Positions 17,783 to 55,080 of a stretch of 64,000 bases of DNA are shown here, piece after piece; within the stretch, counting starts at the first letter, position 1, and each line of letters opens with the position of its first letter. Both the position numbers and the translations under genes were made by a program. Location: the NCBI RefSeq assembly GCF_018446385.1, contig NC_055991.1, positions 103,647,712 to 103,711,711 on the forward strand, in the 5' to 3' direction. Below the pieces are notes generated by a model. It had not been told where the DNA came from. It did no database searches and was given only the letters and a program-made list of their open reading frames with translations. Source of the stretch: Zingiber officinale. Taxonomy: Eukaryota; Streptophyta; Magnoliopsida; Zingiberales; Zingiberaceae.

Positions 17783-17879
17783 ATAGTCGATTAATATTGG
17801 TTTCACCAGATATATATGTTGTAACAAGGAACTGCTACACAACTTTGAAGAAGTTAAATATTAGGATAAGTTGTTTATA
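17783..17879 (+). pseudogene. copia protease-region piece between two insertions
   Basis: The frame YICCNKELLHNFEEVKY runs into DKLFIA and continues on the far side of the CACTA element as NSTTSNIKSQGNVVLKITV. This shows that the CACTA transposon inserted into this copia element. Confidence 0.78.
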
Positions 17880-18110
17880 CACTACAAGAAAAATCCTCAT
17901 AGACATCGGTGGAACAACAACGGTTTTAAGCAAAAATCGATGTCTTTGAGTATTTTACATCAGTTCTTCCAAAAGCCGATGTCCATAAGCATAGATTTTC
18001 GCTCATAGACATCAGTTTTTTAAACCGATGTCTATGAGCGCCTTTTTTTCGTTAATAGACATCGATTTTAACAGCGGTTTAAAACCCGGTGTCTATGATA
18101 AAATAAAATA
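17880..18110 (+). repeat. CACTA 5' terminal and subterminal repeats
   Basis: Multiple direct and inverted copies of CATAGACATCGG and CCGATGTCTATGA in about 230 bp. Such arrays bind the element-encoded accessory protein in the En/Spm family. Confidence 0.88.
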
Positions 18111-18541
18111 ATTTAATTTTCACACCAATACTTAGCCGAAACCCTTCTTCGCATTTCGAGAAAGGAGAGGTGACGAGTTTGTCTTGTTTTCTAGGGTTTT
18201 AGAGTAGTAGCGACGGAGGGAGGCAAGATGAAGACGACTAGGGGGAAAGGTGATACTAAGTTCCACCGATCCGATGAAGACGACTTTAAATAGTCATCAA
18301 AGAAAATGGAGAAGAACCTCAACTATAGCAGAGCTTCCCCATGGACGCATCGACGTTCGTGTAGATCGACCCGCTCCAATGGATCCTTGACATGAACTCC
18401 CTCGTCAGCGATGCCTACCGCGACGTTAGAAAACTCTGTGTGTTTCTCCTCCCGGTTGCAGCTTCCTCCTTCCCACCCGGCAAGGCCCTCACCATCTACT
18501 TCCAGCCCCTTGGTCATCCCTTCCTCTTTTGCGGTGCCGTC

Positions 18542-20429
18542 TGTTGGTGTAACCTTAGGTCAAGGTTGACCTGGTTGACCCGACTCGAGTTGACGTGACT
18601 CGAGTTGTATTTTGATGTTTGACTTGGGAAGATTGTCGGTGCAACCTTAGGTCAAGGTTGACCTAGTTGTGTTGCATGTTGATGTTTGACACTCGTGAGA
18701 GAGTTCTATTCTTGATGTGGGACAAGAATAGATGTTTGGGAGATTATTGGTGCAACCGTAGGTCAAGGTTGACCTGGTTGACCTGATTCGGGAAAAGTCC
18801 AAGTATGGAGACTTGGCACGGAAAAGTCCAAGCAGGGAGCTTGGCGAAAAGTCCAAGTATGGGGACTTGGCACGGAAAAGTCCAAGCAGGGAGCTTGGCA
18901 CGAAAAGTCCAAGTATGGAGACTTGGACGGGAAAGTCCAAACAGGAGTTTGGCACGGGAAAAGTCCCGTGAGTGAAGCCAGTGGAAATCTGGTGAGTGAA
19001 TCCGGTGAAAATCCTAGTGAGTGAAGCTAGGTGAAGGTGAAAGTCCCTGGTGAGTGAAGCCGGGCATTCGGGAAAATCCTGGTGAGGCGGTGAAAATCCT
19101 AGTGAGTGAAGCTAGGTGAATGGAAAAGTCCTAACTGGATGTTAGGCGGTGTGGAAAGTCCTGTAAGTGAAGCCGGCGGTGGGAAAGTCCTGTAAGTGAA
19201 GCCAGCGGTGAGAAAGTCCTAACTGGATGTTAGGTAGTGGAAATCTGGTGAGTGAAGCTGGTGAAAGTCCCGTGAGTGAAGCTGGAAGGGAAAATCCAGA
19301 TGGATCGGGAATGATCGGACTTCCGGTGTTGGAAAGTCCAAGTAGGTCAAAGGATTGACCGGACACTTGGAGAGGGAGCGGTCAAGGAGTGACCAGATGT
19401 TAGGGATGAAGTACCAATAGGTCAAGGTTGACCGGATATTGGTTTAGAAGTCTTGGGACTTGGTTTGGGCCAAACCAGCTCTGGATCGGTCACCAAACCG
19501 ATCCAGTGATACTGTTTGCTCGATCGGTCCGTGACCGATCGATCAACAAGCTCTGTTCGATTCTTGATCGATCGGTGACCGATCGCCAGTAACAGAGGCA
19601 AAGAGAGGCGGTGCCGATCGTCCATTGCATCGATCATGTCCTGATCGGCTGGGGACCGATCGAGACGATGTCGCGAGGTTGGGATCGGTCGGACCGATCC
19701 AGGTCGATCGGTCCACGCACCGATCGAACCCGCATGTAGGTGGGCACGTGAAGAAAGCGATCGGTCCGGGACCGATCGAATAGGTCTGATCGGTCCCCGA
19801 CCGATCAGTAGCAGTTGCGACGCAACGGCCAGATTTCTTCTGTGTTTTCTTCGCTTTCGCAGGTTAGGCTACGGCTGCGAGCCAAATGTTCTTCTTGCAC
19901 TCCTTCTGCTGAATCTTTTCTGCTTCCTGCTGAGCTTTGGTTGAGCTCTCATTGTGCTGAGTTCTGTTGAACTCGTTGAAGCTCTGCGTGAGTTTCCTGC
20001 TGGTGTTCTAGCTGCTGGATCCGAGAAGCTGCTGCTTCATCAAGGTTCCAGTCGACAACAAGAGGCAAGCAAGTGTATTACAATTTCTATTGTTCTTGTT
20101 TGTTTTCTCCATTGTTGTACTCCTTTGTTTGCTGTTGCAAAAGAGTGTGGCGAGGTTTCTCCACCCATAAGGAGTTTATATTAGCCGGTTCTCCGGGGAC
20201 TCATCCACCGACGGATTGACCGGACTCGTCCACCTTACGGACACGCCGAGGAGTAGGAGCCCTAATCTCCGAACCTCGTTACATCCATCGAGTTTGAGGT
20301 TTGATTTCTTTCTTTATCGCTTCTATTGTTTTATTTCCGCTGCGCTAACTCGACATTGTAGAAAGAATCGAACGAATTGGGGTCGGCTATTCACACCCCC
20401 CCTCTCTAGCCGTACGAAGGATCCTAACA
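18542..20429 (+). repeat. 5' LTR of the gag-only element
   Basis: 1,888 bp, TGTTGGTGTAACC to GGATCCTAACA. The first kilobase is a chain of short hairpin units (18799-19290). Then come eight GATCGGTC...GACCGATC palindromes (19483-19806). Compared with the 3' LTR it lacks the segment ATAAAAGGAGG at about 19865, which removes the TATA box. The open frames in it (e.g. 19954-20184) are identical in both LTRs and are not genes. Confidence 0.9.
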
Positions 20430-20431
20430 AG

Positions 20432-20443
20432 TGGTATCAGAGC
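20432..20443 (+). other. primer-binding site (tRNA-Met type)
   Basis: TGGTATCAGAGC, two bases after the 5' LTR. This is the usual minus-strand primer site of copia elements. Confidence 0.88.
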
Positions 20444-20492
20444 GAGGTCGCTCTTCATCGGATTCACACCCGTGGGAGCACAAGCGCTAGAG

Positions 20493-21968
20493 ATGGATCA
20501 ATTCGGAGAAGACATCACCATTCCACCCTTCTACAACGACAACTTCGCATATTGGAAGGTAAGGATGATGTATTTTCTTAGGACTAATATGTGGAATTGG
20601 TTTTGTGTACAAGAAGGGTTTACTCCTCCAATGGATAAAGAAGGAGAGCCTCTAGAGAAGAACAAGTGGACAAAGGAACAAGTCCATCAATCAACGATCA
20701 ACAATGAGGTAACTAAAACAATTGAATTTTCATTACCTACTAATATTTTGCGTAAGATAGGTGAATACAACAATGCCAAGGAGTTGTGGGATAACTTGGC
20801 CAAGTACCATGAGGAGAGTTCCACTTCAAGCCATGAAGAGGAGCCTAGTGAGCCAAGTAGCTCACATCATGGAGGGAGCGAATTGGGAGTTGAGGGCTAC
20901 TCAACATCCAAGGAAGAAGAGGAGGAGAGTTCCTCTTGCTCAAGTTCGGAGCAAGAAGAAGAAGTTTCCACCTCCGGAAGGGATGAGGAAAAGAGCCTTC
21001 ATCCATCCTCAACCCTAGGTAACTCAAGCATCGTAATTTCAAATAAGTTGCACATAATGTGTTTTGAGTGTAGGAAACATGGACATTACAAGAGTAAGTG
21101 TCCAAAGAGGGTAAGAAAGACTCCACCGGCGCCAAAGGTCAAGGAAGCCGGAGTCCCGAAACGCAAGGGCAAGGAGCACATCGTGTGCTTCCAATGCAAG
21201 CAAAGGGGACACTATAGGAGCCATTGTCCGAGGGGGAGGCAACCTCACAAGGGCAAGAGACCGGGCACATCGATAGGGGGAGCTAAGGCAAACCCTAAGG
21301 TAACCTCTAAGGTTCATTTTTGCAACTCTAATAAAATGCATGCTAGGAATTTTATTGCACTTGTCGATAATAACAAGCATGATAACCTTAGGAATCAATA
21401 CATGTGCTTAGGTGCCAAACATGTGAGCCTAGATAAGGATAACACTAGGAAAGCCAACCCTAGAATTACCTCATCTAAGGTTAAGGAGAACCTAGGTAGG
21501 AATCCCAAATCAACTAGACACATGCCTAGGAATGCCTCAAAGAAAAATGACAAATCAAAAATTGAGGTATTAGAGAAGGAGAATCAAGTCTTGAGGTCAA
21601 GACTTGATACTTTGGAAAAGGCTCTTAAGAACTTGGAGAAGTCATCTCTAGGGTTTAAGGGTCAAAAACCAAAGCCCAAGGACAAGAAAGGTTTGGGTCA
21701 CAAACCTAAGTCCCAAATGGTCAAGCCCACCTATCATAATGTTCCATTCGATTATGGAACAAAACCTAGGGCTAGGAAGACCACCACCAAGGTCACAAGG
21801 GGAGTCACCCCTATAGTTGATCTTGATGAGACCCAAATGACCAAGGCTTTAAAGCCTAAGAGGGTCATTAGGAGGGTTGCTAGGGAAGTTATCCCTAGTG
21901 AATATTTAGTGAACCCAATGAGCTCACATAGATATTGGGTTCCTAGGAGCATCTTCTCTACCCCATAG
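20493..21968 (+). CDS. gag: Gag protein of the gag-only retrotransposon
   Basis: An intact 491-codon frame from MDQFGEDITIPPFYND. An in-frame ATG lies 21 bp upstream, but this one matches Gag starts in the family. The N-terminal UBN2/DUF4219-like capsid part has FAYWKVRMMYFL and AKELWDNLAKYHEE. A Ser/Glu-rich acidic stretch follows (about residues 110-170). Two CCHC zinc knuckles come next: CFECRKHGHYKSKC from about residue 190 and CFQCKQRGHYRSHC from about residue 232. Near residues 360-395 is a short coiled coil (EKENQVLRSRLDTLEKALKN). The C-terminus is YLVNPMSSHRYWVPRSIF. Gag packages element RNA into virus-like particles in the cytoplasm. It stops where a protease would begin in autonomous relatives. 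The open frame suggests recent activity or trans-use. Confidence 0.9.
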   Translation: MDQFGEDITIPPFYNDNFAYWKVRMMYFLRTNMWNWFCVQEGFTPPMDKEGEPLEKNKWTKEQVHQSTINNEVTKTIEFSLPTNILRKIGEYNNAKELWDNLAKYHEESSTSSHEEEPSEPSSSHHGGSELGVEGYSTSKEEEEESSSCSSSEQEEEVSTSGRDEEKSLHPSSTLGNSSIVISNKLHIMCFECRKHGHYKSKCPKRVRKTPPAPKVKEAGVPKRKGKEHIVCFQCKQRGHYRSHCPRGRQPHKGKRPGTSIGGAKANPKVTSKVHFCNSNKMHARNFIALVDNNKHDNLRNQYMCLGAKHVSLDKDNTRKANPRITSSKVKENLGRNPKSTRHMPRNASKKNDKSKIEVLEKENQVLRSRLDTLEKALKNLEKSSLGFKGQKPKPKDKKGLGHKPKSQMVKPTYHNVPFDYGTKPRARKTTTKVTRGVTPIVDLDETQMTKALKPKRVIRRVAREVIPSEYLVNPMSSHRYWVPRSIFSTP

Positions 21969-23837
21969 ATGGGTTAGAGAGTGTCAACTCCAATAAGAAG
22001 GGTAGTTAACCCAACTTTGAGGAAATTGACACTCAAGGAGCATTCTCAAGGTTTTTGAGAACTTTTGAAAATGAAATGGAATTATCATTTACTCCTTTGA
22101 AGAGCTAAATGTGCCTAATGGTGGAAATATCATTTTTAATCTTAAGTGGCACAATTTGAGGAAAACTTAGAGAAATACCATAATTGGGATTTTGGTTTTC
22201 TCTTAGGGATTTATGGGCAATCTAGGGTTAGATTTTAAGTTAGCTAAGGCTAAGGATACTTAGATAGGGATTTAGGTATTTTATTTGTGCTAACTTGCCA
22301 TGATTGGTTGCCACATGCCATGCCATGACATCATATTTATTTTATTATCATTTGAAATGTCATGATAATGCTTAGGTTATCTATATGTCATGCTTTAATT
22401 AAGTTTTCAAGCTTTATGCCATGACATCATGACATTGGCACATGTTTTTACTTATGATATCATTTATGCCATGTCATCATCTCTTGCATTAATAATCAAT
22501 TGAATTGGTTTAAGGATGAAAAACACATTTTGATATTGAGATCAAAGTGTAGTTTAGAAAATGCATGAGAACTTAGCCTAAGTTGACCTTAACCCATATC
22601 TCACATCAAATTGACTTGAATGTGGTTTGATACACCTTAGATGTGTGTGAGATATTAGGATCATGAGTTAGGATCAAGGTGCATAGTTTTTGTACCTAGA
22701 TGAGCCTAATTCAAGAAAAGGAGGATCATAGGGAAAGCTTGTGTACAAGTCATGTACATTTAGCCCTAAGATTATGGTCCTAAATTCAAATGGTTTTAAA
22801 AGCATTTTAAAATTGATTTGAAAAACCTTGATGAAGCTTTCCTAGTGATAGCATTCATCATTGAACATTGTGATACAAAGTTGAGTTAAAACTTGAACTA
22901 TTTCAAAGTTTTTGAACTTTGTATCAAGATTTGAAAATGGAAACTATTTTCATAGAAAATTATTTTTCCATGGTAGTGTATGATATGAGGAATGTATCCT
23001 CAAAATTTCACAATTTTTTGAATTTTCTGGAATTTATTAGGGGTTTCTGAATTTCGGGAGAGGAAAAATCAGAAATCCCTGTGATCAGTGTGTGGATCGG
23101 TCGCTGGACCGATCCAGGGAGGGCTGGATCGGTCACTGGACCGATCCAGAGTGCTGTGGATCGGTCTGGTGACCGATCCAGTGAGGTCTGATAGCGTGCC
23201 AATGTGCTGAAATTCGACTGCATGTCTGAAATTTCGGCTGAAAGTTGGTTTTTAGATTTCTAAAGGTTTGAAACTCTCCAAGACATTGTTGGTGCAATGG
23301 TCAAGGGGGAGTTGGCCTTTAGGGGGAGTTTTAACTATTAGTCAAGGGGAGTTGACTTTTAGGGGGAGTTTTTACTCCTTGAGGATTAGTGATATGGGAT
23401 TATCACTAAGTGGATTGTTGAGCTTAGTATCAAGGGGAAAATAAGAGTTTCAATGAAAGGTATGGGACTTTCATTAGGAAGAAACTCTTGACCTTGATAC
23501 CCTCCTTTTTCTTTTTGATGTGTGTCAAAAAGGGGAGAGTGTTCATTGGAGAATTATTGGAGAACCCAAGTTAGGTTATCGGTTTAACCTAAGCTAGGGG
23601 AAGATTGTCAAGGAATGTTCGAGGAAGAACATTGGAATACTTTTTGATGTGTGTCAAAAAGGGGGAGAATTATTAGAGAACCCAAGTTAGGTTATCGGGT
23701 TAACCTAAGGGGAGAATGTCCAGAGAATGTTCAAGGAAAGAACATTGGACATTGGAAGATGGTTGGAAAACCTAAGTTAGGTTATCGGGTTAACCTAACT
23801 TGATTATGATTTTGTCAAACATCAAAAAGGGGGAGAT
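21969..23837 (+). other. non-coding 3' internal region of the gag-only element
   Basis: No conserved retrotransposon domain in any frame. It includes two GGATCGGTC...GACCGATCC palindromes (about 23096-23180). Three tandem modules at 23511-23837 each combine a G-rich polypurine-like stretch with an inverted repeat TTAGGTTAT..GTTAACCTAA. Confidence 0.75.
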
Positions 23838-25757
23838 TGTTGGTGCAACCTTAGGTCAAGGTTGACCTGGTTGACCCGACTCGAGTTGACGTGACTCGAG
23901 TTGTATTTTGATGTTTGACTTGGGAAGATTGTCGGTGCAACCTTAGGTCAAGGTTGACCTAGTTGTGTTGCATGTTGATGTTTGACACTCGTGAGAGAGT
24001 TCTATTCTTGATGTGGGACAAGAATAGATGTTTGGGAGATTATTGGTGCAACCGTAGGTCAAGGTTGACTTGGTTGACCTGATTCGGGAAAAGTCCAAGT
24101 ATGGAGACTTGGCACGGAAAAGTCCAGGGAGCTTGGCACCGAAAAGTCCAAGTATGGGGACTTGGCACGGAAAAGTCCAAGCAGGAGCTTGGCACGCGAA
24201 AAGTCCAAGTATGGAGACTTGGCACGGGGAAAGTCCAAACAGGGAGTTTGGCACGGGGAAAAGTCCCGGTGAGTGAAGCCAGGCAATGGAAATCTGGTGA
24301 GTGAATCCAGGTGAAAATCCTAGTGAGTGAAGCTAGGTGAAGGTGAAAGTCCGTGAGTGAAGCCGGGCATTCGGGAAAATCTGGTGAGTGAAGCGGTGAA
24401 AATCCTAGTGAGTGAAGCTAGGTGAATGGAAAAGTCCTAACGGGATGTTAGGCGGTGTGGAAAGTCCTGGTAAGTGAAGCCAGGCGGTGGGAAAGTCCGT
24501 AAGTGAAGCCAGGCAGTGAGAAAGTCCTAACCGGGATGTTAGGTAGTGGAAATCCTGGTGAGTGAAGCCGGTGAAAGTCCCGTGAGTGAAGCCGAAGGGA
24601 AAATCCAGATGGATCGGGAATGATCGGACTTGGTGTTGGAAAGTCCAAGTAGGTCAAAGGATTGACCGGACACTTGGCGAGAGTTCTAGCAGTCAAGGGA
24701 GTGACCGGATGTTAGGGATGAAGTACCAATAGGTCAAGGTTGACCGGATATTGGTTTAGAAGTCTTGGGACTTGGTTTGGGCCAAAACCTCTGGATCGGT
24801 CACCAAACCGATCCGGGATACTTGTTGCTCGATCGTCCGTGACCGATCGGATCAACAAGTTCTCGTTGCATCGATCGGTGGACCGATCGCCAGCAACAGG
24901 CAAAGAGAGGCAGCCGATCGGTCCATTGCATCGTCAGTTATGTCCCTGATCGGTCGGGACCGATCGAGACGATGTCGCTGAGGTTGGGATCGGTCGTGGA
25001 CCGATCCAGGTTTGATCGGTCCACGCACCGATCGTAACCCGCGAAGGTGGGGCTCGTGAAGAAAGCTGATCGTCCGGGACCGATCAGAATAGGTCCTGAT
25101 CGGTCCCCTGACCGATCCAGGCACTAGCCGTTGCGTCGCAACGGCTAGATTTCTTCTGTGTTTTCTTCGCTTTCTTCGCAGGTTATAAAAGGAGGGCTAC
25201 GGCTGCGAGCCAAATGTTCTTCTTGCACTCCTTCTGCTGAATCTTTTCTGCTTCCTGCTGAGCTTTGGTTGAGCTCTCATTGTGCTGAGTTCTGTTGAAC
25301 TCGTCGAAGCTCTGCGTGAGTTTCCTGCTGGTGTTCTAGCTGCTGGATCCGAGAAGCTGCTGCTTCATCAAGGTTCCAGTCGACAACAAGAGGCAAGCAA
25401 GTGTATTACAATTTCTATTGTTCTTGTTTGTTTTCTCCATTGTTGTACTCCTTTGTTTGCTGTTGCAAAAGAGTGTGGCGAGGTTTCTCCACCCATAAGG
25501 AGTTTATATTAGCCGGTTCTCCGGGGACTCATCCACCGACGGATTGACCGGACTCGTCCACCTTACGGACACGCCGAGGAGTAGGAGCCCTAATCTCCGA
25601 ACCTCGTTACATCCATCGAGTTTGAGGTTTGATTTCTTTCTTTGTCGCTTCTATTGTTTTATTTCCGCTGCGCTAACTCGACATTGTAGAAAGAATCGAA
25701 CGAATTGGGGTCGGCTATTCACACCCCCCCTCTCTAGCCGTACGAAGGATCCTAACA
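23838..25757 (+). repeat. 3' LTR of the gag-only element
   Basis: 1,920 bp. It has the same layout as the 5' copy: hairpin chain (24085-24260 and onward), palindrome array (24792-25130), TATAAAA at 25184-25190, then a U5-like end with the CACCCCCCCTCTCTAGCCG stretch. The TATA box is present here and missing in the 5' copy. Confidence 0.9.
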
Positions 25758-26117
25758 CCGTCCACCCTGCCCGCCCATCCGCTCTCCTCTCCCTCCCTTG
25801 GCTTGACCCTTCCGAAGAACCCCCCCATTCCTGACCCTAACCCTAATCCCCTCCAGCTCGCGCTCACCTCCGCCAAGATCGGCATCTCGGTCGAGGACCT
25901 CGCCTCCTTGCCACCTGTCGCTTACGCCTTTGCGGAGAAGAAGGCCGAGCGACTCGCTCTTAGGGTTGGCGAGAACCTCTTCAATTTCATGCAGTCCTTC
26001 TGCGGGATTGACGGAAGGCGGCTCATCGTGCCCATGGATATCCTTGACCGGTGGTTCAAGAAGTTCCAAGAGTGAGCCCGGAAGGATCCCAGTTACCTCA
26101 AAGATTTCGCCTTGTGA

Positions 26118-26740
26118 CAGACAGGTGAATGCCCAATCCCAAAGGTGCTGCTTTTTGCAAGGATCTCTTTCCTTGATGGTATCGCGTTTCATATTATATT
26201 TTGGTTGCATCTGATTTGCTTGAATTGTATGATACTTCTTCTTTTCATGCCTCTTCATTTTTATGTCTCTCTCAATTAATCCAGGTGGATGATCTTTGAT
26301 GTCCACTTTAACCGCCCACAATGTGTTTGTTGATTGTCCCCAACCAACTATAAAGCGATTTTGACATTGTTTGAAGTGAAGTTCTCAAAAAGTGATAGGA
26401 TCTCAAGATATTATATATGGCAGGAGAAATAAGCTAAATTTTTCAGTAATTATTCCATTTTGGATTTATTCATCTCATTGAAGTAGTCAACTAGAAAACG
26501 TCAACTAGAACATGCATCAAGAAACACTAAAAGATATCATAGCTTTGTTGAACTCCATTTTGCTTCATCATGCTTTAGTTATTCAGATGGTACAACTAAT
26601 TTACTCCTTCAGCACACAGTTTTATGGAAAGTGGCTGGAAAACTAATCATGCCAAAACCAAAGGGCTGAACATCTGAGATTAAAAAAGCTTCGTCGTCTG
26701 GACTTAAGTGGTCCTTTTCTCCTGGGACTAACCTGCTATC
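26118..26740. other. CACTA interior between the Hikeshi and LRR fragments
   Basis: The beginning probably represents the captured Hikeshi 3' UTR. No coding motif was recognised. Confidence 0.4.
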
Positions 26741-27390
26741 AGGTGGTGCTGGAAAACTTGAAAAAGAGTTTAGGAAAAAACTAAATGAGTTTTCCAAGGA
26801 ACTTAGAACATTCAGAAGTGTTGACTTGTCAGGTTAGCACACTGAACTTGTTAGAATGTATCTACAGCAAGTGATTACAGTTGTTCACTCTATAACTGAT
26901 TATTTCTAAATCTAATATCTGGTAATGAATATGCTGAGATAACTTTTCAGGGGATTAAACTTACATTTACTTTACCAAGGTAATGGAATACTTGTAGATA
27001 TTTAACAAATTCATGATTCTGTTAGGTCATAACTTTGGTGATGATGGTCTGTTTTTTCTTGCTGAAAGCCTTGGTTACAATCAGGTTAGTTCTTTTCCTT
27101 CCTTTCCATAACCTTGCTTTTTTTTCTTGTTCCTACTTGTAAACTATTGCTGAACCAGACTCTTAAAGGTATGACATTACTAAAGCAAGACATTTAAGCA
27201 TAACTTTTTTTAGTGTCGTTTAGCATCTCATTAGTTTTTTTCCAAGTCTCAGGCAACAGAGGAAGTTGATTTTTCTGGCAATGGGATTACAGCAGTTGGC
27301 CTAAAGGCACTCGATGGTGTTCTTCAGACGAATACCATGCTTAAAACTCTGAACCTATCAGGAAATAATATTGGCGATGAAGGAGCTAAG
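26741..27390 (+). pseudogene. captured EMB2004-like LRR gene, exons a-c
   Basis: Three exon-like segments with GT-AG borders. 26741-26832 reads GGAGKLEKEFRKKLNEFSKE then FRSVDLSG. 27026-27084 reads HNFGDDGLFFLAESLGYNQ. 27253-27390 reads ATEEVDFSGNGITAVGLKAL then TMLKTLNLSGNNIGDEGAK. They join in frame. The LxxLxLSGNxIGDEGA repeats are of the ribonuclease-inhibitor type and match, from memory, the chloroplast-related Arabidopsis EMB2004 protein. The gene's start is absent. Two LRR segments expected next in the family are missing, so this is a captured fragment rather than a working gene. Splicing could still occur if transcribed. Confidence 0.78.
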
Positions 27391-27763
27391 GTAAGTCCAT
27401 TTTTTATTTTTAATTTTACTAATTTTTATGTTTGCGCCTATTCATCTGGAAATAAGCAATTTGATTCTGCTAGAAGTACAATAGTGTATTGGAATACAAG
27501 AAAAATTAAAGTTCATTATAATCATTAATTGATAATTTGATATTAGATGATTTCTTTGATGGTAAATGACAAAATCCTTTAATGGTATTAGATAAATTTA
27601 CTGTGGTTGATATAGTAGGAATTCACACAAAGTAATTAGCATACTCCTAATTGTAGTTGCTAAATGCAAATACCCTACTATGTTTAGCTAGTTCATTTGA
27701 CTGTATTTATCTTAGTTTGTTTAGGTCGGTTTTCCGCACTATGTTTAGCTAGTTCTTCTCTGC

Positions 27764-27838
27764 TTCCAAGAAAAGAGCAGAGAAGAAAGAACCAGTGGTT
27801 CCTCAGTGGATCAATTTAGTCCCGTTAAGCTACGACAC
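27764..27838 (+). other. possible captured exon of unknown origin
   Basis: A short frame reads ASKKRAEKKEPVVPQWINLV, with coding-like residues (charged run, then VVPQWINLVP). It is surrounded by non-coding sequence. I do not recognise the parent gene. Confidence 0.3.
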
Positions 27839-28270
27839 TTGTTAGATGTAAGTCAGGAACTTGTATGCCCATCTTTTAACTTCCTTTTACTAAACTAAAT
27901 GCCCACATGAACAATCTTGAAACTTTTACAATGTCCTCATATATACTCTTGTGGAGTGTTTGTTTCCATGGTAGGTTAAAATGTTGAACTTAAAATTTTC
28001 TACTTTATGATATGTTAGTTTTCCATTAGTAGTTCCGATTAGAGATGCAAATTGGGTAGTGTCAAAGGGTTACGCCATACTAGCAGCTTGCAGGGCAAAT
28101 CCAATTCTCGAGCCGTACTACAACCATGCCAAACTGAGCATAGTGCGAAAAGTGACTTGGATGGATCTCTATCATGCCTAACCCAGGCACATTCCATTGA
28201 TTCCTCTCTTCTGGTTTAGATAAAGATTGTTTGGAATTGTATGAGATTGTATTTACCTGTCTCTAGATGA

Positions 28271-28771
28271 TCATAGTGTTCCTGCCAAGAACTCACACGC
28301 TGCTCCTTCCACTTCAATCATGCTTGCTCCTGAGGATTGTTTGATGTCCAAATCACACATCAGTTTCCTCACTTTCAATGCATCCTCTGTTCTACCAGTA
28401 ATCGCATACAACTTTTGCAGAGCTACATATCCACTTTCCTCCAGTGGCTCAAGCTCAATGAGATGCCTCGCCACCACTACGCCCAACTCGTAATCACCAT
28501 GAGCAAAGCATCCACCTAAAAGTGCACGCCAAGCAGAAGCATTTGTTTCGAAAAGCAAGCTCTCAAGCACTGATCTCGCCTTATCGAGATACCCCCCACG
28601 AGAAAGAGCATCCACCAAGCATCCAACATGTTCTGCCTTTGGCTCAACTCCATAAACCGTCTTCATGCAATTGAAGTCGATGATAGCAGTGTCAATCATG
28701 CCTACATGGTTGCAAGCCATCAAAATTCCGATGAAGGTATTCCTATCTGGTCGCAATCTGAACTTGATCAT
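28271..28771 (-). pseudogene. captured PPR protein fragment (C-terminal PPR plus E domain)
   Basis: An uninterrupted 166-codon minus-strand frame begins MIKFRLRPDRNTFIGILMAC and contains PPR helices: HVGCLVDALSRGGYLDKARS, WRALLGGCFAHGDYELGVVV and ELEPLEESGYVALQKLYAIT. It ends GASMIEVEGAACEFLAGTL, like the E domain of PLS-class PPR proteins, which act on organelle RNA. Full members are 400-800 residues, so only the last third is present. A stop lies immediately upstream of the first Met. It is antisense to the LRR fragments that flank it on both sides. Captured by the CACTA element; function as a protein is doubtful, though no stop has appeared yet. Confidence 0.8.
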
Positions 28772-28972
28772 CTACACAAATAGTGAAAGAGTAGCCATTC
28801 CACATCCATTTACAGCCAATCCACACAGACTTAAGACTTACACACAATTGTATTCTGTATGACCTTATTCTTGGGCAATCTTTCATGTTTTTTTATGAAA
28901 TTCCTAGATCTTTTACACTTTGTTTCTGGTGTCCTTACTACTTACACCTTATTTCCATGTGAAATTTTATAG

Positions 28973-29314
28973 GGTTTTGCAAGTCTTGTTGGAGCACTAG
29001 TTGAGAATAAGGTAATTCGATCTATACATCTCAAGCTAATAAGACTTACACACACTTAGATTTTCTATCCATGCAGTTCTTTCTTGCAGATTTAATTTCT
29101 TCATCAGATTTGTTGACTTTCCAGTATTTATTGATTGTACTACTTCTCAGCAATTATGTAAAACTATATTTCTTCTTGTTTAGGAAAAATAACACTTCTA
29201 GATATTGGCAACAATGAGATTGGTCCCAAAGGCGCCTTTAGCATCACTGAGTATGTTAAGAAAACTAAGTCCTTGCTATGGCTGAATCTTTACATGAATG
29301 ACATTGGCGATGAG
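28973..29314 (+). pseudogene. captured EMB2004-like LRR gene, exons d-e
   Basis: 28973-29011 reads GFASLVGALVENK and ends at a GTAATT donor. 29184-29314 reads KITLLDIGNNEIGPKGAFSI then KTKSLLWLNLYMNDIGDE and ends at GTGTGG. Both match successive parts of the EMB2004-type repeat protein, but the segment expected between them (about one exon) is missing. They belong with the exons at 26741-27390. The PPR fragment lies between. Confidence 0.75.
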
Positions 29315-29818
29315 GTGTGGTTATTGACTATTGTTGCTTTATGCTCTGTTGCTTCACTTCTGAAACATAAATTATCATCTAAGGTGCATATATATCTCAT
29401 TGGAAATCATATAAATGAATTGATGTTACTCATCTTTATTGTTGCTGAGGAATTTATTTACTTTCCATGTACTCTTAGTGATAAAAGTGAATTTATTGTT
29501 TGCAAACTAAAAGTGAATTTATTTACTTTCCATGTACTCTTAGTGGTAAACAGTTATGCCATTTGGGTCGACTACTAATGAATTGAATTTGAAAGATTAA
29601 ATTGCTGTTTATGTAGTTAGATTAAAATTTTTAGTTTGGATTATATTAAGTTCCCAGGAATGATAGATCTATCACTATATGATATGGTTGAGATAATTGA
29701 TGAATGTTTTTCTTTTTAAGCATTCCAATTAGTCATCTTGTTACATGGTGCTCTTACTACTTTTTCAATTATGATTTTTGGTCTTGGTTTACTAATATAT
29801 TATTTATGTGTTTTTACA

Positions 29819-29899
29819 GTTTACAATTCTCAAGCACTCCAAAGTTGAAATTGATGAAGTGCGGTTCGAGTGGGCTGAATGCATGCTAGATTACATTTG
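29819..29899 (+). other. possible terminal exon of unknown origin
   Basis: After an acceptor-like TTTTTACAG, one frame reads TILKHSKVEIDEVRFEWAEC then MLDYI and stops. This looks coding-like but I cannot name a parent gene. It may be another captured piece. Confidence 0.3.
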
Positions 29900-30017
29900 A
29901 GTAGGAAATGTATTTGATTTTTGAAAACTTTGGATGATGCATGCATTTGCATGGAATGTAAATTGCGGATATTATCTTGATGTGTACAATATTTATTACC
30001 TTTTGATGTTGTGAAAA

Positions 30018-30175
30018 GAATTTGTGCATTTTATGGATACTGTTGTAAGAAGAATATTTATGTAATTTATGAATATTTGTGTATTTTATGGATACTGATG
30101 GAAGAAGAATATGTGTAATTTGTGAATATTTGTGTATTTTATGGATACTGTTGTAAGAATAATATTGGTGCATTT
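30018..30175 (+). repeat. tandem repeat of about 54 bp, three copies
   Basis: Copies start at 30021, 30076 and 30129 with TTTGTG[CT]ATTTTATGGATAC and diverge slightly. A partial fourth follows. Confidence 0.75.
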
Positions 30176-30214
30176 TATCATTTTTTCACTATTTCAGAAA
30201 TTGAATTTATGCTG

Positions 30215-30542
30215 TTAAAAAATAATGAAATTACATCGGTTTTCCACCGCTGCAAAACCGGTGTTATTAACTAATATTACATTGGTTGTATATCGCTGCC
30301 AAAATTAGTGTTATTAACATATAATATTACATCGGTTTTACACCGTTGATGAAACAGTGTCGTTAAGTGATATGACACCGGTTAATAACAGATTCGAACA
30401 CCGGTGTCGATAAGTGATACTACACCGGTTTTAACCCGATGTCTAAAATGACAGACCTTTTACATCAGCTTCATAGACATCGGTCGAAAATGTAATAGAC
30501 ACCGGTGGAAAACCGATGTCTATGAGGGTTTTTGTTGTAGTG
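30215..30542 (-). repeat. CACTA 3' subterminal repeats
   Basis: Repeats such as ACATCGGTTTTCCACCG, GACACCGGTTAATAA and CCGATGTCTATGAGGG in both orientations, ending TTTTTGTTGTAGTG at the transposon border. Confidence 0.88.
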
Positions 30543-31627
30543 ATAGCAAACTCAACGACCTCGAACATCAAGAGCCAAGGAAATGTGGTGCTAAAAATAA
30601 CCGTGGGCAAGGAGCTTACTGTGAACAATGTGTTATATGTTCCAGAGCTTCGAAAGAATTTGATATCCAGATCACTATTAAGCAAGTTGGCTTTCACATT
30701 GTTTTGAAGTTAGATAGAGTTGTTTTATCCAAAAGTATGTGATCTAAAAGGGATACCTACACATGGTGGGAATAATACTTCATCACTTTTGCTGATGATA
30801 ACACAAGATATTATTATGTGTATCTTCTCAAGGGTAAGGATGAAGCTATAGAAAAATTTATTCTCTATAACAATGAGGTTGAAAACTAATTTAATAAAAA
30901 AATTAAGGTGGTGTGAGATGACCGAAGCGGTGAATTTGTATCACTATTCGCTGAGTTGTGTGTTGGATAAAACACAAAACAACAACACCCTATACTCCTC
31001 AGTAAAATGGTGTTGTTGAGTGAAAGAGTCACACTCTGAAGGAAATGCCTATTGAGCTATGGATTGCTAAAGTACATATAAAGGCAAGATGTATTAACAA
31101 TTAATTACCTTTTAAATAAAGTATTTCGAATAAAAATAGACAAAAACCCTTATAAGTTGTGGAATGAAAAACAACTATCATAGAAATACTTGTGAGTGTG
31201 GGGTGTCTTGCAAAAAGTTATGGTGCCTAATTAGAAAGGATTAAAATAGGACTAAAAAATATTGATTACATATTTATTAGATATACACATAACAGTGGTG
31301 CTTACCGGTTCCTTGTGTATTAGTCTCAAATACTGGAAATACACAAGAACTTTATTATTGAATCAAGAAATGCTTCATTCTTTGACATGTGTTTTCTTAA
31401 AAGACCCGAGAAGAAGGAAGTTCTTCAAAATGAACATTTAAACCATAAGAAGAACAAGAATAAGAAGAAAATGATGAACCAGTTGAGGTTGAGTTTAGAC
31501 GAAGTAAAAGAGATCAAGTGGAAAAATTGATTCAAAATGAATTTTATCACTTCATGTTGGAAATTGATCACAAAAGTTACTCAGAATCTATAGGCTCTTT
31601 TGATAGACCTAATTAGAAAGAGACAGC
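30543..31627 (+). pseudogene. decayed copia element, protease-integrase-RT start (right piece)
   Basis: Continues the frame from 17879: NSTTSNIKSQGNVVLKITVG, NVLYVPELRKNLISRSLLSK. Then broken integrase blocks: FADDNTRYYYVYLLKGKDEA, VMVPN..., IDYIFIRYTHNSGAYRFLVY, ESRNASFFDMCF. It ends near VEFRRSKRDQVEKLI at the start of the RT region, where the next LTR begins. Many stops. Confidence 0.75.
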
Positions 31628-35796: not shown

Positions 35797-36789
35797 CTAG
35801 TGCCAATCAGTGTAAGCTCTAAGCCCCAATGACCTAGTGTGACCATCATGCTTCCTCTGTGCCAAAGCCTTGGTCAAGGGATCTGCGATGTTAGCCTCTG
35901 TAGGTACTCTGCAAATCTTCACATCTCCTCTCTCGATGATCTCTCGAATGAGATGGAAGCGCCGTATTATGTGTTTGGTCCGCTGGTGTGAGCGAGGTTC
36001 CTTCGCCTGTGCTATAGCTCCATTGTTGTCACAATAGAGCTCAATAGGGTCAGCAATGCTAGGAACCACCCCAAGTTCAGTGATGAACTTGCGAATCCAA
36101 ACTGCCTCCTTTGCTGCCTCTGATGCAACAATATACTCGGCCTCTGTCGTAGAATTAGCTACTGTGTCCTGTTTCGAACTCTTCCAGCTCACAGCACCAC
36201 CATTAATGCAAAATACGAACCCCGACTGCGATCTATAGTCATCCTGGTCGGTCTGAAAGCTAGCATCACTGTAACCCTTTACAGCTAGCTCATCATTGCC
36301 TCCATATATCAAGAAATATTGTTTAGTCCTTCTTAAGTACTTAAGAATATTCTTGACCACTATCCAGTGACTTTCACCTGGATCTGACTGGTATCTGCTC
36401 GTCATGCTCAAAGCATACGAGACATCAGGTCGAGTACATAGCATGACATACATGATTGATCCTATGGCTGAGGCATAAGGGATCTGATCCATGCGGTCTC
36501 TCTCCTCTCTAGAAGAGGGACCTTGAGTCTTCGAAAGACTCACGCCATGTGACATCGGCAGAAATCCCTTCTTGGAGTTCTGCATGGAAAACCGAAGGAG
36601 TACCTTGTCAATGTATGTACTCCGACTTATGCCAAGCAATCTCTTAGATCTATCTCTATATATCTGTATCCCTAAAATGCGGGATGCCTCACCTAAGTCC
36701 TTCATTGAGAAGCAACTCCCTAGCCATGTCTTGACAGACTGAAGCATAGGGATGTCCTTCCCAATGAGTAGTATGTCATCCACATACAA
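35797..36789 (-). pseudogene. Tork-like RT C-terminus and RNase H
   Basis: An uninterrupted 330-codon frame. It starts MYVDDILLIGKDIP (the YVDD reverse transcriptase motif) and runs through YASAIGSIMYVMLCTRPDVS. It then carries the RNase H motifs GYSDASFQTDQDD, NSTTEAEYIVASEAAKEAVW, LYCDNNGAIAQAKEP and KHIIRRFHLIREII, and ends TDWH 15 bp from the LTR. Two in-frame stops just upstream (36790-36885) separate it from the RT N-terminus, so this is part of a broken polyprotein. Confidence 0.9.
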
Positions 36790-36885
36790 TATGAGGAAGA
36801 CAACTATATCCCCTACAACCTTCTTGTAGACACAAGGTTCATCTTCATTCTTGATGAAACCAAACTATTTGATTGCATCATCAAA

Positions 36886-37659
36886 TCAAAGATTCCAGCT
36901 CCGAGAAGCTTGCTTTAGTCCATAAATGGACCTATGCAGCTTGCATACTCTGCTAGTATGCTGTGGATCTATAAAACCCTCAGGTTGTGTCATGTACACA
37001 TCCTCGAGTAGGTTTCCATTCAGAAACGTGATTTTGACATCCATCTGCCATATCTCATAGTCATGGTAGGCTGCAATAATAAGCATGATCTGAATGGACT
37101 TAAACATCGCTACTGGAGAAAAGGTTTCATCATAGTCAATACCATGAATCTGCTTGAAACCTTTAGGTACCAAGCGACCCTTATAGATAAGTTCATCCAT
37201 GTTAGTCTTTCTCTTAAAGACCCACTTACACCCAATGGGTTTTACCCCTTCAGGTGGATCAACCAAAGTCCATACTTGGTTGGTGTACATGGATTCCATC
37301 TCGGATCTCATGGCCTCTAGCCATTTCTCAGAATCTGGTCTTATCACAGCTTCCTGATAAGTGGTAGGCTCATCCTCTATGAGAACAATGTCATCATGGT
37401 CAGACAAGAGAAATGAGTATCTCTCAGGCTGACGACGTACCCTATCAGACCTGCGAAGAGGTATGTCTACTTGAACTGGTTGTTGTTCCTCAACTCCTTG
37501 TGGAACAACATCATCCACAACACTTTGTGGTTCCAGTTCAATTTCCATCGAGGCATCAGTGCTATTGTTCGCAACTTGAACTTCTTCAAGATCGAACGTG
37601 CTCCCACTAGTCTTTCTAGAAACAAAGTCCCTTTCTAGAAAGACCCCAGTCTTTGCCAC
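36886..37659 (-). pseudogene. Tork-like RT N-terminus
   Basis: A 257-codon frame with the integrase-RT linker (RRSDRVRRQPERYSFLL) and RT blocks WTLVDPPEGVKPIGCKWVFK, GIDYDETFSPVAMFKSI, WQMDVKITFLNGNLLEDVYM and SIYGLKQASRSWNL, where a TGA ends it. It is in the same frame as the downstream RNase H piece. Confidence 0.9.
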
Positions 37660-37661
37660 AA

Positions 37662-38351
37662 CTACCTGGGAATATAGAAGTAATATCCCTTAGTTTCCTT
37701 GGGATATCCAATAAAGTAGCACTTGTCGGATTTGGGTCCTAACTTGTCTGAGACTTGACGTCGAACGTAAGCCTCACAACCCCAAATTCTCATGAACGAC
37801 ACCTGGGCATCTCTCCCAGTCCATATCCTATATGGTGTCTTTATCACGACCTTGGATGGAACTCGGTTGAGTATAAAAGCTGCCGTGTCTAGAGCATAGC
37901 CCCAAAGGTATGTCGGAAGATCTGTGTGACTCATCATAGATCGTACCATATCTAATAGGGTACGATTCCTCCTTTCGGATACACCATTCCACTGTGGTGT
38001 TCCAGGAGGAGTGAGTTGGGATAGAATCTCACACTCAGCTAGATAGTCACGGAACTCATGGCTAAGGTATTCTCCACCTCGATCGGATCGAAGTATCTTA
38101 ATACTCTTGCCAAGCTGGTTCTGTACTTCATTCTTGAATTCTTTGAACTTTTCAAAGGATTCTGACTTATGTGTCATCAAGTACACATAACCATATCTAC
38201 TGAAGTCATCAGTAAACATGATGAAGTACCTATAACTGCCTCTAGCAGCGACATTGAAAGGGCCACATACATCACTATGTATGAGTCCTAACAAATCAGT
38301 CGCCCACTGAAGGGAGTCTTGGTCATCTTGCCTCGTAGGCATGACTCGCAT
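37662..38351 (-). pseudogene. Tork-like integrase core
   Basis: A 229-codon frame with the DDE integrase core: DLLGLIHSDVCGPF, MFTDDFSRYGYVYLM, LRSDRGGEYLSHEF and TPQWNGVSERRNRTLLDMVR. It is offset by frameshifts from both neighbours (near 38300-38350 and at 37660). Confidence 0.9.
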
Positions 38352-53039: not shown

Positions 53040-55080
53040 GGAAATAAAATAATTTTTTTTATAAAATTAATTAAATTAAAAATTAAATTAAATTTAGAAT
53101 TAATTTAAATTTCAAATTAAATTAACTAAATTAAATTAAAATATGAATTGAATTAAATTGCCGTTTAAATTAAACTAAAATTTGAATTAAATTAATTAAA
53201 TTTTTGATTAATTTCAAAAAAAATTAAATTAAATAAAAATTAAAAAAAAATAACTTAAAATTATTTTAGAAATATTTCTAACAAAATTATTTTAGAAATC
53301 CTTCTAACTAAAAATTATTTTTCAAATCTTTTTAACTTAAAATTATTTTAAAAAAATTTTAACTTAAAATTATCTTAAAAATATTTGTAACCTAAAACTT
53401 CATTAAAAAACTATTTTAAAAATTCTTTAAAAACTATTTTAAAAATACTTTAAAAACTATTTTAAAAATTCTTCAAAAACTATTTTAAAAATTCTTTAAA
53501 AAATTACTTTAAAAATTATTTAAAAAATTCTTTAAAAAAAATATTTTAAAAATTCATTCAAAAATTACCTTAAAAATAATTCTAAATATTCTTTAAAAAA
53601 TTATTTTAAAAATTCTTTAAAAAATTATTTTAAAAATTTCTTTAAAAATTATTTTAAAATTTCTTCAAAAAACTATTTTAAAAATTCTTTAAAAATTATT
53701 TTAAAAATTACTTAAAAAATTATTAAAAAAAATTATTTTAAAAATTCTTTTTTAAAAATCATTTTAAAAATCCTTTTAAAAATTATTTTAAAAATCCTTT
53801 TAAAAATCATTTTAAAAATTATTTTAAAATTTATTGTAAAAACATTTAAAAATTATTTTAAAAATTCTTTCAAAAAATTATTTAAAACTTTTCAATATAA
53901 TTTTAGAAATTCTTTTAAAATATATTTTAAAAACTTTTAAAAACCATTTTAAATTTTTTTTTAAAATTTATTTTTAACTTTAAAAAATCATTTTAAAAAT
54001 TCTTTTAAAATTTATTTTAAAAACTTTTAAAAAAATTCTTTTAAAATTTTTTTTTAATCATTTTAAAAGTTCTTTTAAAAATTATTTTAAAAAAAATTAA
54101 AAATCATTTAAAAAATTCTTTCAACTTTTAAAAATCATTTTAAAATATTTAAATTATTTTAAAAATTCATTTAAAATTTATTTTAAAAAAACATATAAAA
54201 ATAATTTTAAAAATTCTTTTAAAATTTTTTTAAAAAAAAATTTGAAAAAAAATATTTTAAATCCTTTTAAAAATTATTTTAAAAATCCTTTCAAAAATTC
54301 TTTTAAAATTTATTTTAAAAACTTTAAAAAATCATTTTAAATATTCTTTTAAAAATTCTTTTAAACTTTTAAAAATCATTTTTAAAATTCTTTTAAAATT
54401 TATTTTAAAAAGTTTTAAAAATCATTTAAAAAAATTCTTTTAAAAAATTATATTTAAAATTTCTTTTAAAATTTGTTTTAAAAATTATTTTAAAATTATT
54501 TTAAAATTTATTTTAAAAATCATTTAAAAATTTTTTTAAAAAATTTATTTTAAACTTTTAAAAATCATTTTAAAAATTCTTTTAAAAATTATTTTAAACT
54601 TTAAAAAATCATTTTAAAAGTTCTTCTAAAATTTATTTAAAAAAAACTTTTAAAAATTCTTTTAAAAATTCTTTTTTTTTTAAAAAATAAAAATCATTTT
54701 AAAAATTCTTTAAAAATTCTTTTAACTTTTAAAAATTATTTAAATCATTTTAAAAATTCTTTTAAAATTTATTTGTAAAAAAACTTTTAAAAATCATTTT
54801 GAAAATTACTTTTAAAAAATCCTTTTAAAAAAATATTTTAAATTCTCTTAAAAATTATTTTAAAAATCCTTTAAAAAAACTATTTTAAAAATCGTCTTAA
54901 AAACTATTTTAAAAATTATTTTTAAAAAATCCTTTTAAAAAATATTTTAAATTCTCACAAAAATTATTTTAAAAATCCTTTAAAAAATCTATTTTAAAAA
55001 TCGTTTTAAAAACTATTTTAAAAATTATGTAAAAAAAACATTAAATCATTTTGAAAAATTCTTTTTAGTATTATTTTTCC
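53040..55080. repeat. AT-only minisatellite (TTTTAAAAATTCTTT-type), about 2 kb
   Basis: Runs of TTTTAAAAA alternate with ATTATTTT, ATTCTTT or ACTATTTT for roughly 2 kb, units of about 11-16 bp with no fixed period. On the + strand G is almost absent while C recurs in each TTCTTT unit. Every unit has the TTTTAAAA self-complementary core. Confidence 0.9.

Follow-up and report, generated by a model that had tools for sequence, protein, structure and literature searches.

CACTA transposons are known to carry pieces of host genes. In the parts of the published accounts drawn on here, capture of several genes by CACTA elements (PMC1947982; PMC8903248), single captures by CACTA elements (PMC8978399) and, in animals, capture by gap filling (PMC8277862) have all been described, and two explanations for gene capture by DNA transposons stand in print: tandem-insertion fusion and template-switching repair. 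Here, we describe a CACTA element of ginger (Zingiber officinale), at positions 17880-30542 of a window of 64,000 nucleotides (the whole stretch analyzed, C6:103647712-103711711), that carries pieces of a Hikeshi gene, an EMB2004-like leucine-rich repeat (LRR) gene and, in antisense, a pentatricopeptide repeat (PPR) gene. We searched an assembly of 3,090,333,446 bases in 211 contigs; a published diploid assembly comprises 11 pairs of pseudochromosomes and 3.1 Gb (PMC8342452). Our reading is that of a Pack-CACTA whose cargo would have been assembled stepwise, with one step by template-switching repair, and which then multiplied in a burst and drifted. We hold this full reading at a probability of about 0.7, because it includes the repair step, for which fusion is the alternative.

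The element opens at 17880 with CACTACAAGAAAAA and runs to its inverted end at 30542. Its terminal inverted repeats (17880-17910 and 30512-30542; 31 nt, 94% complementary) start with CACTA and are bordered by a 3-bp target-site duplication, ATA, at 17877-17879 and 30543-30545. A reading of this DNA made from the letters alone (the sequence-only reading) had proposed a complete element of 12.66 kb; its ends and duplication stand, but its length does not, as 18542-25757 is a nested long terminal repeat (LTR) retrotransposon. Once this is removed, the CACTA element has a length of its own of 5,442 bp (~5.44 kb), plus a 5-bp duplication, and ~64% of it is assigned to the three parent genes. The earlier statement that no transposase is visible was borne out: we read none among the 17 window open reading frames (ORFs) of at least 80 amino acids, with five window stretches also run through Pfam, and both the stretches without a parent match (41, 298 and 358 bp) and the ends (404 and 786 bp) are too short to hold one. 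We are close to certain that the element is a Pack-CACTA, meaning a gene-carrying CACTA that is non-autonomous, and that its cargo comes from these three parents.

The insertion itself can be read from related DNA. When both flanks were joined as one query, 40 of 7,060 candidate places were scored, two of them being the window's own flanks. The other 38 each match across the flank join at 77-80% identity and are other copies of the repeat that received the CACTA insertion; the remaining 27 rows were side pieces of one flank. Because the join is continuous in these other copies, the insertion is real and the borders fit. Besides the window, no flank match above 88%, as an allele of the insertion site on the other haplotype would give, was listed among the 40 scored.

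The parents of the three fragments lie on three different chromosome pairs of the same genome, and parent alignments together with Pfam uphold both the identity of the fragments and the capture that had been proposed for them. The Hikeshi parent is an uninterrupted 196-codon gene at C15:27.99 Mb and C16:24.06 Mb. Its capture extends from about codon 10 to ~110 bp past the stop and is split by the nested retrotransposon into a first part (18325-18541, plus strand; 93.5% identical over 215 bp to the parent stretch L041, L labels such as L011, L041 and L052 denoting individual fetched genome stretches that we compared with the window) and a second part with the remaining coding sequence and the 3' stretch (25758-26228, plus strand; 96.6% to L041 over 471 bp). 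The window's piece carries a premature stop, and a PDB search with it matched only three designed dTor repeat proteins.

From the LRR parent, found at C20:3.87 Mb and C19:3.83 Mb, three stretches were captured on the plus strand, introns included: 26527-27734 (95.6% to the C20 copy, L054, over 1214 aligned columns), which holds an exon at 27253-27390 that matches Pfam LRR_6; 28851-29177 (96.0% to the C20 copy), which follows a gap of ~0.83 kb in the parent; and 29168-29398 (98.7% to the C20 copy), from an exon that lies farther downstream in this parent. We take this parent to be EMB2004-like on the basis of an Arabidopsis C-terminal probe, which shows 57-82% identity to exons 3' of the captured part, compared with 27-30% for other LRR genes. 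The PPR parent is an uninterrupted 448-codon open frame at C5:164.76 Mb and on contig C48. Its captured 3' part lies in antisense at 27764-28828 (minus strand; 97.7% to the parent stretches L050 and L051 over 1065 bp) and comprises the last part of the gene, with an ORF of 166 codons at 28271-28771 in which Pfam finds PPR and the E motif, plus the 3' flank of the parent at 27764-28270, a correction to the sequence-only reading. We considered capture of the LRR piece from processed RNA and rejected it, as the introns are kept; the Hikeshi and PPR parents are uninterrupted over the captured part, where the sequence cannot tell a DNA from an RNA source. Separately, a different repeat at C3:154.35, C2:186.85, C4:18.58 and C11:104.35 Mb (L045-L048) carries the second half of Hikeshi together with ~1.2 kb of 3' flank. 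The Hikeshi piece is 94-97% identical to the parent in the two of these that were directly compared, and it is an independent second capture of the gene.

Around these pieces lie the ends of the element and segments without a parent match. The CACTA 5' end (17880-18283, plus strand) consists of the terminal repeat and subterminal repeats and is common to sister subfamilies, and a 41-bp stretch (18284-18324, plus strand) joins it to the Hikeshi piece. The segment at 26229-26526 (plus strand) is shared with the Hikeshi-only subfamily, and that at 29399-29756 (plus strand) has a 95.8% match in another repeat copy, L057. The 3' end (29757-30542, plus strand) contains subterminal repeats, the terminal repeat and an exon-like piece at ~29820-29900 that is part of the family's common 3' end. 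Counted without a control, the subterminal repeat ACATCGGT recurs at 17903, 30233, 30329 and 30477, and its complement at 18024 and 30512.

The family is large. Allowing at most one mismatch, the 30-nt terminus has 2,933 matches in the genome (1,486 forward and 1,447 reverse) versus none for a reversed control, so that the copies with the same termini for which a search had been suggested do exist. Searches with the two ends scored 40 of 3,011 candidates (5' end) and 40 of 3,164 (3' end), neither of which is a family count. A search with the composite region (26000-27000) scored 40 of 98 candidates, of which 17 places, including the window, span the joint between Hikeshi and LRR, eight match only to ~26542 and 15 only from 26527. 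The 17 places correspond to 16 insertion loci, and the composites at C9:49.99 Mb and C10:47.35 Mb are alleles with both flanks in common at 99.7-99.8%. Left flanks are otherwise unrelated, and among right flanks, those of L013 and L019 share an inverted 387-bp repeat at 90%. We fetched and read the 16 sister copies: 14 are complete (5.36-5.66 kb), and L014 and L017 showed no 3' end within the fetched stretch. Counting the 14 and the window, two of these being alleles, 11 of the 15 complete copies have a perfect 3-bp duplication, with L013 included by reading its first C as mutated to T.

The tree of the 17 copies is star-like with very short inner branches, and copies differ from the consensus by 0.9-1.4% over up to 3.6 kb. 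L011, L012 and L013 group together and share a variant 3' end ~86% like the window's, which suggests either an exchange of ends or two founder ends. A 3' end at 97% also occurs at C8:49.17 Mb, outside the 17 composite places. As a further observation, L017 (C14:86.74 Mb) and a place at C14:86.72 Mb are one composite copy split by ~17 kb of other DNA.

How the cargo came together is recorded in relatives that carry only part of it. Four elements with Hikeshi have neither LRR nor PPR in the fetched stretch (L025, L026, L027 and L037; both ends were seen only in L027). L052 carries LRR without PPR: there, ~1.6 kb lies between the LRR halves and holds an intron and two more LRR exons, as read from translation. 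The corresponding interval is 0.83 kb in the parent, the intron in L052 being ~0.8 kb longer. L053, which also bears LRR, has its own CACTA 5' end and a different 5' cargo. Near the joint at 26527, an 8-nt stretch, CTAAAAGA, is present in both source lines. Because Hikeshi-only and LRR-only subfamilies exist, the cargo was probably assembled stepwise, by recombination of two lineages; a capture in one act by the one element that had been supposed finds no support. Judging from these alignments, the left part of the composite appears to derive from the Hikeshi lineage and the right part from the LRR lineage, and the PPR piece seems to have arrived after LRR capture, replacing part of the LRR segment.

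Two other subfamilies illustrate the range of cargo. In one sister CACTA subfamily, whose ends are the same, a piece of an LSM-domain gene occupies the Hikeshi position (L028:1121-1486; Pfam LSM, E 6.6e-12), and the LRR-type element L053 has a 281-codon open frame between its 5' end and its LRR piece (L053:1314-2156) without a Pfam match. Pfam, run on 12 stretches with cargo of other subfamilies, recognized the PPR parent, the LSM domain and, in flanking DNA, a retrotransposon gag; for the other cargo stretches among the 12, it gave no convincing family.

The PPR piece has short filler at both of its borders. On the left, a filler at 27735-27764 (plus strand) consists of 18 nt identical to 27677-27694 followed by 12 nt (27753-27764) that are an inverted copy of 27776-27787. 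On the right, the filler at 28829-28850 (plus strand) repeats 29040-29054 exactly over 15 nt (28832-28846). When 3,000 segments were drawn at random from parent and cargo DNA, none showed an exact 18-nt repeat inside 250 nt; for 22-nt segments, a 15-nt exact repeat turned up in 0.3% of 3,000. The left filler is retained with at most one mismatch in 15 of the 16 fetched copies and the right filler with at most two mismatches, likewise in 15 of 16, L017 being without the region. Filler copied from both flanks, once as a snap-back, points to repair synthesis with template switching.

We propose the following series of events. A Hikeshi-carrying and an LRR-carrying element may have recombined near 26527 at the 8-nt common stretch. 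A break, or the gap left by a transposon, inside the LRR part could then have been repaired with template switching. The repair would have copied in 1.06 kb from the PPR gene, on a different chromosome, and left templated filler on both sides. The composite would have multiplied in a short burst, with transposase supplied from elsewhere; in a later step, an LTR retrotransposon would have inserted into the Hikeshi part of the window copy, and the captured frames would be drifting without detectable selection.

Several observations weigh against this account. Duplications are imperfect in four of the 15 complete copies, ~700 bp of the interior has no source match, and the left filler of L012 has nine mismatches. 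A source of transposase is also missing so far: the search for Transposase_21 scored 150 of 6,544 candidate genome places, and none of the 16 listed places that could be checked by eye (on C1, and on C2 to 133.5 Mb) lies within 20 kb of a listed exact end, so that the autonomous partner that the common termini were expected to reveal did not appear. Neither did a transposase-bearing element with these ends, among the matches listed, which is weak evidence. The uncorrected omega values for Hikeshi (0.49) and PPR (0.72) would alone hint at constraint. Finally, the hybrid layout could also be obtained under the tandem-insertion model.

That model, the Pack-CACTA model of Catoni and colleagues as described in the consulted parts of PMC8903248 and PMC13317346, is the strongest competitor, and we regard it as possible, at perhaps a third of the weight given to repair. 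In this scenario, two LRR-type CACTA copies came to flank a PPR fragment, their inner ends were lost and the pair became mobile as a hybrid, all else being as in our account. The order of left LRR half, PPR and right LRR half is just what it predicts, the left half ending at 27734 and the right half starting at 28851 within the same LRR segment, and the Hikeshi-LRR joint makes clear that this family does join halves. However, the PPR parents L050 and L051 match only 27764-28828, with no other match to the element in their fetched 3.5 kb, and the filler copies element sequence on both sides, once as an inverted snap-back, which is a better fit to repair synthesis, even if end joining following inner deletions could leave similar filler too.

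A further reading, which would come on top of these accounts and which we consider very improbable, holds that selection maintains the Hikeshi frame of the cargo and that a protein is made from it, the family being a functional gene carrier and not a passive one. At least seven of the 16 sister copies retain, by text match, an open frame of 184 codons that corresponds to the 196-codon parent from Met13 on, several copies show open frames of 201 codons, and the low Hikeshi omega points the same way. Yet the constraint signal is gone once the mutation spectrum is modelled, and we rejected selection on the captured frames on this ground: silent changes number 71 of 186 in Hikeshi (16 sequences; 66.9 expected under the observed spectrum) and 31 of 109 in PPR (15 sequences; 31.3 expected), and stops number 7 versus 8.9 expected and 4 versus 4.6 expected, respectively. 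These counts exclude the allele L024, and in L017 the fetched stretch holds no PPR piece. Moreover, the parent's start codon lies outside the capture, so that translation would need to start at Met13, and the frame in the window copy is broken by stops and by the 7.2-kb insertion. Judged by these substitution patterns, the Hikeshi and PPR frames of the cargo behave as expected under neutral drift. The idea that resident genes lay together here and the transposon formed around them, for which only the local order in the window speaks, can be set aside: the parents, whose absence elsewhere would have favored it, are found with longer gene structures on other chromosomes, the fragments are truncated, and the same composite stands at 16 loci with unrelated flanks.

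The nested retrotransposon (18542-25757, plus strand; 7.2 kb) has LTRs at 18542-20429 and 23838-25757 (~1.9 kb each), a primer site, TGGTATCAGAGC, a polypurine tract and a flanking CCGTC duplication at 18537-18541 and 25758-25762. Its gag-like ORF (20472-21968, 498 amino acids) has weak Pfam matches to a zinc knuckle and to Copia-type gag, below the curated cut-offs; no pol was found among the window's ORFs of at least 80 amino acids, and a complete pol was thus not recovered. None of the 16 composite sister copies that we fetched carries this insertion. We discarded LTR divergence as a means of dating it, as the overall Kimura two-parameter distance of 0.062 would imply a retrotransposon older than the copy that it sits in. 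At their ends, the two LTRs differ at 3 of 740 compared sites, and in the middle at 108 of 1,128. This middle of 1.2 kb, in which ~10% of sites differ and small indels are many, lies between near-identical ends; it could reflect assembly error, conversion or fast mutation of GC-rich repeats. Elsewhere in the window, ORFs in the flank at 35797-38351 (minus strand) resemble Copia-type pol, judged from translations alone, and 53406-55036 is an AT-rich tandem array with a 12-bp unit (~139 copies, 70% match).

Overall, the Pack-CACTA kind is known, and the interesting part of this locus is a resolved capture series with parents, intermediates and repair scars. One genome that holds the parents, the intermediates and the product, together with filler that names its template, makes the two printed models of capture comparable event by event across a family. 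On slightly better than even terms, we also favor a broader reading, in which one ginger family of CACTA ends acts as a combinatorial gene shuffler, its subfamilies swapping halves and gaining unlinked genes through templated repair of breaks, with capture legible base by base in the surviving intermediates. There is a warning for annotation as well: several copies have an open, near full-length Hikeshi frame that could enter an annotation as a gene, and this frame fits neutral drift. We found no report of this ginger CACTA family in the literature searched, whose coverage left out most subscription papers, and the word CACTA is absent from the main texts of two ginger genome papers.

Set against known systems, as far as the portions consulted of each paper describe them, the ginger element is most like the Pack-CACTA and Pack-TYPE elements (PMC8903248), with which it shares CACTA ends, the lack of a transposase, host coding DNA from several loci per element and subgroups with added cargo; it differs in its larger cargo, in a subfamily series with identified parents and in templated filler at one capture. 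Multi-gene capture is not the great rarity that the sequence-only reading had assumed: maize Pack-CACTAs draw on several loci (PMC8903248), and soybean Tgm-Express1 is a 5.7-kb CACTA holding pieces from the introns and exons of five unrelated genes (PMC1947982). Tgm-Express1 sits in a gene intron and has proven chimeric transcripts, whereas the ginger element lies in repeat DNA and is known from its sequence. The CACTA elements of Chenopodium likewise hold captured host fragments, for which the paper cites Rubin and Levy's gap repair as the mechanism, but they adjoin a transposase-domain region, which the ginger element does not have (PMC8978399). For the Pack-TIRs of animals, too, capture is attributed to gap filling that involves template switching and microhomology; more than half of those captures came from nearby DNA, whereas the ginger sources lie on other chromosomes (PMC8277862).

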